Source: Flavobacterium psychrophilum (GTDB lineage: Bacteria > Bacteroidota > Bacteroidia > Flavobacteriales > Flavobacteriaceae). From it: 47,346 nt of DNA. The notes under the pieces are model-generated. The model did not search any database. It was not told the DNA's origin and saw only the letters and a list, made by a program, of their open reading frames with translations. Both the position numbers and the translations under genes were made by a program. Location: positions 1 to 47,346 of the forward strand of contig CAMDGJ010000001.1 of assembly GCA_945897545.1 (NCBI GenBank). Direction: 5' to 3'. Each line of letters starts with the position of its first letter. Within the stretch, counting starts at the first letter, position 1. This document shows positions 46,430 through 46,738 of this stretch, piece by piece.

Positions 46430-46738
46430 ATGAAAAAAATTACACTCGGTCTCATCGTATTTTTAATTCTGTCGTTTGCATCGATTGCGCAGGCACATGC
46501 TCAAGGGGGGATGCAAATATTTGTTAAAACCCTAACCGGCAAAACCATCACTTTGGATGTGGAGGGTGCTGATAGCATTGAGAGTGTCAAACAAAAGATC
46601 CAAGACAGGGAAGGGATTTCTCCAGATTTACAGCAACTCATTTTCGCAGGGCAAGAATTGGAAGATGTACGCACCCTAGCGGATTACTATATTCAGAAAG
46701 AATCTACATTACACCTTTTTGTGAAATCGCCGCCATAA
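46430..46738 (+). CDS. Secreted ubiquitin-like protein
   Basis: A 102-residue protein: signal peptide (MKKITLGLIVFLILSFASIA, cleavage likely after AQA or AHA), GG linker, then a ubiquitin fold at residues 28-102 beginning MQIFVKTLTGKTITLDVE. By hand alignment 54 of the first 70 positions match human ubiquitin, including the Leu8-Ile44-His68 surface and Lys6, 11, 27, 29, 63. Lys48 is Gln and Lys33 is Arg, and the LRLRGG tail is replaced by KSPP then stop, so E1-type conjugation through the C-terminus is not possible. Export to periplasm or surface is inferred. The frame continues beyond the TAA into an adhesin-like frame. Confidence 0.93.
   Translation: MKKITLGLIVFLILSFASIAQAHAQGGMQIFVKTLTGKTITLDVEGADSIESVKQKIQDREGISPDLQQLIFAGQELEDVRTLADYYIQKESTLHLFVKSPP

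Follow-up and report, generated by a model that had tools for sequence, protein, structure and literature searches.

Standard teaching presents ubiquitin as a eukaryotic signal that works inside cells by covalent attachment, and the locus described here, at the end of a contig of Flavobacterium psychrophilum, raises the question of what a ubiquitin with a predicted signal peptide and no conjugation tail may do in a bacterium. The secreted ubiquitin of Bacteroides fragilis (BfUbb) has been described as one of few bacterial exceptions (PMC5705921). We use "the window" for the whole stretch of DNA that was analyzed (47,346 nucleotides); the features discussed below lie at the following window coordinates.

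44770..45966, reverse strand: conserved neighbor, the DNA polymerase III delta' gene (holB), from the ORF list and genome comparison
46236..46288, no strand: perfect (TGT)x17.7 microsatellite, just 5' of the gene and outside the stretch shared with L001
46306..46429, forward strand: upstream region traveling with the gene, common to L001 at another chromosomal place
46331..46338, forward strand: TATGTTTG, match to the -7 element TAnnTTTG, 99 bases before the ATG
46430-46738, forward strand: ORF encoding 102 amino acids
46430..46501, forward strand: predicted signal peptide of 24 amino acids ending in AHA, from its hydrophobic core and AxA
46502..46510, forward strand: QGG linker preceding ubiquitin Met1, from the sequence
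46511..46726, forward strand: ubiquitin domain, residues 1-72, from PF00240, solved-structure matches, comparison with human ubiquitin and a model
46727..46735, forward strand: SPP where the conjugation tail would stand, from comparison with human ubiquitin
46736..46738, forward strand: TAA, in-frame stop separating ubiquitin from the adhesin body; uninterrupted relatives exist
46739..47346, forward strand: adhesin body (AGGDGASASG module, then Ig_7) in the same frame as ubiquitin, running off the contig end

A Ubiquitin Proper without a Conjugation Tail

The encoded domain is ubiquitin proper. PF00240 matches the ORF at 89.1 bits (cut-off 25.4), solved monomeric ubiquitins match the domain with E about 1e-30, and an AlphaFold2 model built from a 23-row alignment (pLDDT 90.5) superposes on 1ubq with a TM of 0.97, the structural comparison that the initial annotation of this DNA had proposed. 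Sequence and beta-grasp fold alike place the domain in the PF00240 family, and the PF00240 score and the fold rule out the distant ubiquitin-like fold that the same annotation had named as the outcome that would overturn it. A script comparison with human ubiquitin finds 54 of 72 residues identical; residues 71 and 72 are both among the 18 that differ, which leaves 54/70 over the first 70, the figure previously obtained by hand count. Among the retained residues are F4, L8, I36, I44 and H68 and the lysines K6, K11, K27, K29 and K63, and the changes include K33R, K48Q, V70F, L71V and R72K. LRLRGG is absent, the domain ending VKSPP and then the stop, so that it has no GG, either C-terminal or to be exposed by processing, and the product is non-conjugable, as had been proposed; the earlier reading of the letters (L8, I44, H68 and five lysines kept, K33 and K48 changed, tail missing) agrees with the comparison throughout. 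There is no cysteine in the ORF. The AxA of the predicted signal peptide comprises residues 22-24 and is followed by QGG and only then by Met1; the claim that the domain follows a signal peptide at once holds as to the predicted signal peptide but overlooks these three residues. The gene belongs with the signal peptide–ubiquitin proteins described below, with the three-residue linker and the stop as reservations.

An Interrupted Adhesin in an Apparently Variable Chromosomal Slot

Straight behind the stop the frame is open and reads AVSSAGGDGASASG... (also given as AVSSAGGDGASASGSFAFTVGQ...), continues into an Ig_7 domain (39.5 bits) and remains open to the contig end, 608 bases after the stop. 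What it encodes is an adhesin body of the flavobacterial surface type; the T9SS end is visible in relatives only. The initial annotation had offered a stable domain in an adhesin as one possibility, and this is the actual architecture of the uninterrupted relatives. The parts of a T9SS type A Ig_7 adhesin share one frame in two of these relatives, L154 and P0130; in the window they are divided by the stop at 46736-46738, which is known from one assembly, and the contig ends before a sorting domain is reached.

The same gene is found at other places in flavobacterial genomes. L001, from a Flavobacteriaceae MAG (genome G001), matches window 46306-47346 over its positions 5790-6839 at 87% DNA identity (blastn), is uninterrupted for 351 amino acids up to its contig end, shares 181 of 202 adhesin residues with the window, and sits behind ilvC, not beside holB. 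L154, from a genome of the same genus (G411, whose gene is L115 in the omega comparisons below), is complete at 574 amino acids and reads signal peptide, ubiquitin, Ig_7 in two stretches and Por_Secre_tail, the T9SS sorting domain. The nearest uninterrupted copy among those compared is the database protein P0130 (975 amino acids), identical to the window at 23/24 residues of the signal peptide, 66/72 of ubiquitin and 191/202 of the adhesin part. The complete relatives (572-975 amino acids) follow the order signal peptide, ubiquitin, Ig_7, T9SS sorting domain. Before Met1, relatives have QGGSG, QGG, GS, G or nothing, and this variation disfavors the idea that QGG is the relic of a polyubiquitin junction.

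A comparison of database proteins with the adhesin portion of the protein from G411 (scoring only the 7998 candidates that share most words with it) gave 23 matches, all with Ig_7 and a T9SS domain, 11 with PF00240 and 12 without. Among these 12, only P0129 has the AGGD module directly behind the signal peptide; the other 11 are incomplete or begin in another way, and most of their similarity falls in the Ig region. On this one clear empty counterpart, ubiquitin looks like an optional head of these adhesins.

The match to TAnnTTTG, the -7 element motif of Bacteroidota, stands 99 bases before the ATG in both the window and L001 and 102 bases before it in L154, and this similar spacing indicates that the gene and its likely promoter moved together. 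The TGT microsatellite ends 42 bases before this element; its length could vary and tune the expression of the ubiquitin gene. On the other side, the window is Flavobacterium-like: at least part of positions 43000-46350 is matched in 101/101 genomes searched from G001's genus (for G455 the match is as weak as E = 3.5e-4), and the best match reaches 92% over 0.67 kb. In the window the neighbor of the ubiquitin gene is holB, and pgk would be past the contig end. In G411 and G438 pgk comes after holB with no ORF of at least 90 amino acids between them, and the interval is filled in G001 by a gene whose domains are Fib_succ_major and fn3; with such differing contents in the four genomes, the place looks like a variable slot. 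Genes with GFSVRCLRD-type ends occur in the G001 holB–pgk slot (L156 3504-4460, reverse strand, the gene with Fib_succ_major) and beside the G411 ubiquitin gene (L154 2034-3185, reverse strand, its end judged by eye), and such genes and the ubiquitin genes seem to share insertion places. On reading the window ORF lists we recognized no E1-, E2- or JAB-like gene.

Across Flavobacteriaceae, PF00240 is present in 8 of 397 genomes, the center genome G001 included. Six proteins of 169-176 amino acids from five genomes consist of signal peptide, ubiquitin and TIGR04183, the last over its cut-off in 6/6. Two stand-alone secreted-type ubiquitins, L067 5941-6231 (Flavobacterium collinsii), ending RTPPCN, and L096 1498-1776 (reverse strand), ending RC, have a terminal or near-terminal cysteine and are close to BfUbb in design. 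One of the eight genomes, that of L102 (57 bits), has a diverged match inside a long protein; at about 1483-1700, in an open frame of 1874 amino acids, a ubiquitin-like stretch identical to the consensus at 31/72 residues stands behind what appear by eye to be Listeria–Bacteroides repeats, and the ubiquitin domain may thus also occur internally in proteins.

A Wider Class of Signal Peptide–Ubiquitin Proteins

A scan of bacterial and archaeal genome assemblies from 84,980 species gave 521 pattern matches, 418 of which encode a relative, and the class figures given here rest on the best 80 of these 418. A signal-peptide-like start (called by script from a hydrophobic core, a start codon and AxA) precedes ubiquitin in 69 of the 80; in all 69 of these Met1 is preceded by A, G, S or C, and in 66 the site is AxA-like. 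By record title, and MAG labels can be wrong, the 69 fall in 13 named phyla with two unplaced; 17 come from records without MAG in the title, and two, both MAGs, are labeled as methanogenic archaea. The earlier suggestion of a second lineage of bacterial ubiquitin gives way to a broader picture, in which the window gene is one of 418 related stretches, spread over these phyla among the best 80. The remaining 11 of the 80 have no signal-peptide-like start and include other possible eukaryotic contaminants or contig edges besides a polyubiquitin, L030 (2901-3815); this row of tandem ubiquitin units without a signal peptide stands on a 4-kb contig labeled Nitrospinota and has the look of eukaryotic DNA contaminating a MAG.

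What follows the ubiquitin head differs widely. In 71 of the best 80 proteins (67 with and four without a signal peptide, nine left out; E up to 0.01), Pfam recognizes Autotransporter in 18, fn3 in 7, SLH in 6, Ig_7 in 5, and Dockerin_1 and IPTL-CTERM in 3 each, and NCBIfam recognizes IPTL-CTERM in 4 and a T9SS tail in 2; these counts are among the first 25 of 73 and the first 25 of 44 families listed and may overlap. Many class proteins have no recognized anchor. On inspection of L007, L012, L016, L020, L032, L035, L045, L048, L077 and L078, several end like outer-membrane barrels, and some of these barrel-like members have long extensions before the signal core. In such barrel-ended members ubiquitin would be a very small autotransporter passenger, PF03797 being the family matched by the 18 of 71.

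The prevalence of the class is low and patchy. Matches were found in 2/398 genomes of Pseudomonadota (the second weak, 26.6 bits), 7/240 of Verrucomicrobiota, 5/249 of Bacillota (four over the cut-off, three of the five weak) and 2/246 of Actinomycetota, where each phylum is named from the record title of its center genome and each count includes that genome, chosen for having a match; among 14 control genomes there was none. Record titles of carriers include Flavobacterium collinsii CECT 7796, Rhodoferax lacus and Conexibacter. A tree of 144 sequences over 72 columns has stars on 3 of its 141 branches; the signal-peptide members cluster in it (30 changes vs 48 in shuffles) without forming one clade, and they may still share a single origin.

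Mobile elements carry related genes in a few cases. The window gene itself had no match among 50,697 phage records. Of 20 related loci on viral contigs, 13 were read, and a signal-peptide-like start was seen by eye in L134-L136 (three similar contigs), L137 and L138; in L134, the one of the three similar contigs read past the ubiquitin ORF, a signal peptide–ubiquitin–IPTL-CTERM gene (2322-2768) is followed about 0.9 kb later by one for a terminase (PF17289, 3676-5247). Phages or prophages may spread signal peptide–ubiquitin genes. Plasmids yielded related ubiquitins in 3/72,556 records, the best 61% identical: the Ruminococcus albus 7 plasmid NC_014824.1 at 388204-388473, annotated as "ubiquitin family protein", and the Pseudoalteromonas plasmids NZ_CP077771.1 and CP076682.1 (0.86-0.90 Mb), with diverged ubiquitin in Ig-like or tandem-95 repeat proteins.

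Selection on the Domain and Its I44 Face

Residues 1-72 of the 69 members equal human ubiquitin at 90% on average, and mean lysine conservation is 95%; the high conservation of the body partly reflects the choice of the set by similarity to the window domain. The tail is free of that choice, the confirming window sequence having none, and it has mostly been lost: R72 is kept in 72%, R74 in 36%, G75 in 25% and G76 in 12%, and GG in 5/69. The median omega is 0.058 when the 257 unsaturated pairs among all 2346 are taken. Among 16 hand-picked pairs of near relatives (15 alignable downstream, L008 used twice), with dS saturated in 2/16 ubiquitin and 1/15 other values and above 1.2 in several more, ubiquitin has a lower omega than the remainder of its gene in 14 of the 15; the exception, L020/L032, has only three nucleotide differences in the domain. 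The window and L001 reverse this relation, with 0.31 in ubiquitin against 0.16-0.17 in the adhesin, while ubiquitin again has the lower value in window–L115 (0.22 vs 0.39 for the rest) and L001–L115 (0.20 vs 0.37). Relative to the consensus, the window copy has ten changes absent from L001, and L001 has two absent from the window.

The I44 face, which we take to comprise sites 6, 8, 42, 44, 47, 48, 49, 66 and 68 (the buried set was likewise assumed), was compared with other exposed sites, residues 70-72 being excluded and P0123 (misaligned), P0140 and P0141 (ubiquitin same as P0137) left aside. The 12 unique sequences of the window's family have 0.31 changes per site on the face vs 0.17 at other exposed sites (site permutation p = 0.07), an excess over the other 68 bacterial sequences at p = 0.02, and in the six T9SS-tailed sequences the values are 0.52 and 0.32 (p = 0.02; excess over the 68, p = 0.002). 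The 68 themselves, all signal-peptide members but L001, have 0.074 on the face vs 0.106 elsewhere (p = 0.74); similarity guided the choice of these 68, and several sets and several tests were run. Within the window's family K6, L8, R42, I44, K48, Q49, H68 and V70 are each changed in at least one member. With moderate confidence, flavobacteria have altered the face used by eukaryotic receptors and the 68 have not.

Comparison with Known Systems

The nearest known protein is BfUbb, and the initial annotation is upheld in placing the window gene beside it as an eukaryotic-type ubiquitin of one kind with it, its export being predicted. Both come from Bacteroidota and pair a signal peptide with a lone ubiquitin domain without GG as a free product, although in the window the product is free only through the stop and its export and cleavage are predicted. 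Carriage is patchy in both, as the 8/397 Flavobacteriaceae illustrate, and only some strains carry BfUbb (PMC3352274, PMC5705921). The mature BfUbb starts exactly at Met1 and ends in cysteine (PMC3352274), whereas the window protein has AHA and QGG before Met1 and ends in SPP, the terminal cysteine occurring instead in L067 and L096. Identity to human ubiquitin is 54/72 for the window domain vs 48/76 reported for BfUbb, and of the two only the window has an in-frame adhesin body behind ubiquitin. BfUbb is secreted and, as a synthetic protein of 76 amino acids, inhibits other B. fragilis strains, bovine ubiquitin being inactive, and the data suggest that an immunity protein is not needed (PMC5705921).

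Other systems share fewer features. The T9SS type A Ig_7 (CHU_C-associated) adhesins of flavobacteria have in common with the relatives the signal peptide, the AGGDGASASG module, Ig_7 and the T9SS domain; they differ in that only 11/23 of the matching proteins have PF00240 and in that the window copy is stopped after ubiquitin. By Jiang et al. the target of BfUbb is reportedly a peptidyl-prolyl isomerase. The cross-phylum signal peptide–ubiquitin proteins resemble the window in their N-terminal ubiquitin, mostly lost tail and variable extracellular part, but nearly all 69 have Met1 directly at the predicted cut and a kept I44 face, unlike the window's family, with its linker in some members and its changed face. 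The secreted ubiquitin of the nematode Globodera rostochiensis also combines, like the window gene, a signal peptide with ubiquitin and is effector-like (PMC5705921). Bacterial E1/E2/Ub-like operons share the beta-grasp with the window; in them the genes for Ub-like proteins are accompanied by genes for enzymes resembling E1, E2 and JAB (PMC1779556), none of which was recognized in the window ORF lists.

Function of the Window Protein

We hypothesize, though we would put it somewhat short of even, that the window gene encodes a secreted, tail-less ubiquitin, freed by the stop, that acts by BfUbb-like non-covalent binding. Sec export and cleavage by signal peptidase I would release mature QGG–ubiquitin–SPP into the periplasm, vesicles or the medium; in the uninterrupted relatives the T9SS is predicted to display the protein on the cell surface, and the stop after ubiquitin makes it likely that the window copy releases free ubiquitin. 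E1 needs the terminal glycine to activate ubiquitin, so that a protein without one should be neither activated nor conjugated and would serve as a non-covalent binding head, whose partner may be a protein of competing bacteria, as with BfUbb. For the free product we tentatively favor such antagonism: within the phylum, BfUbb is the closest case known from experiment, and the flavobacterial I44 face has diverged from that of eukaryotes, as would suit a partner that is not a eukaryotic ubiquitin receptor. Several points count against antagonism: BfUbb is the one member with an activity that we saw reported, many relatives have a large downstream part and anchor domains, ill-suited to a diffusible toxin, the window protein does not have the C-terminal cysteine of BfUbb, and the window copy may be decaying. 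A broader reading of the class, to which we give slightly less than an even chance, is one of extracellular ubiquitin display in many phyla of bacteria and in some archaea: tail-less ubiquitins with Met1 exactly at the signal-peptide cut would form exposed N-terminal heads on surface proteins with lineage-specific anchors (autotransporter barrel, S-layer domains, dockerin, IPTL-CTERM, T9SS), would have been transferred between lineages and would be kept under purifying selection for the binding done by their own surface; flavobacteria would have re-aimed the I44 face, and the window copy would have been cut loose as a BfUbb-like effector.

Displayed or shed ubiquitin might instead face eukaryotes, as a non-conjugable decoy that engages the ubiquitin-binding proteins of protist grazers or hosts. 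The I44 face of the other 68 members, kept as well as their other exposed surface, the lysine retention over the 69 and the strong purifying selection evident from the median omega all suit a mimic, and BfUbb became covalently linked to human E1 and inhibited ubiquitination in vitro (PMC3352274). A bacterial surface meets the phagosome lumen and not the cytosol, however, and nothing implies a system that secretes into host cells; among the 69, two carry the label of methanogenic archaea (the labels may be wrong), and it is in the window's own family that face residues have changed, leaving mimicry rather unlikely here. The stop may also mark a decaying allele or an assembly error, which breaks an adhesin whose ubiquitin head worked and leaves a free product without function. 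The downstream frame is open and conserved relative to L001 (identity and omega above), which implies that the stop is recent or not real, and the close uninterrupted copy P0130 points the same way; the stop, the greater change of ubiquitin in the window than in L001 and the reversed omega would fit decay as well. Yet neither the signal peptide nor the ubiquitin frame nor the promoter-like element is damaged, and L067 and L096 establish the stand-alone secreted ubiquitin as a real form in Flavobacteriaceae; we regard decay or error as unlikely.

Less probable still is a purely structural role, in which ubiquitin is merely a stable, protease-resistant N-terminal cap that aids folding or shields the adhesin. 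Its place exactly at the predicted mature N-terminus in 69 members, before varied downstream parts, would suit a cap, and ubiquitin serves as a stabilizing fusion tag (PMC3906898). A cap would hardly need to stay 83-96% identical where the fused part drops to 31-47%, as it does in 5/15 pairs, and both P0129, with the same module behind a signal peptide and no ubiquitin, and the stand-alone L067 and L096 argue against one. Eukaryotic contamination or a mis-join, which the initial annotation had named as a second way in which it could fail, might be suspected from the position at the contig end, from the GC content of 42% in the ubiquitin domain vs 23-40% per kilobase in the window, and from the abrupt beginning of L001 homology at 46306. 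Against this, the gene has a bacterial signal peptide and a fusion frame with a T9SS adhesin, with no intron, polyubiquitin or ribosomal fusion; two other flavobacterial genomes carry it with its promoter-like element, uninterrupted and at other sites; and the extra gene in the holB–pgk interval of G001 (Fib_succ_major/fn3) gives the insertion a parallel. We consider contamination very unlikely.

Implications for Bacterial Ubiquitin

The class around the window gene is more novel than the window gene, itself akin to BfUbb. In the open-access literature, searched mostly by title and abstract, we found no paper on a wider class of exported ubiquitin-headed proteins beyond BfUbb, and saw no activity reported for any other member. 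The window provides a naturally cut-off form of ubiquitin and, together with L067 of F. collinsii, L096 and the carriers titled Rhodoferax lacus and Conexibacter, ready test material. If many bacterial genomes encode tail-less, conserved ubiquitin heads on exported proteins, then ubiquitin would also have an extracellular, non-covalent use.
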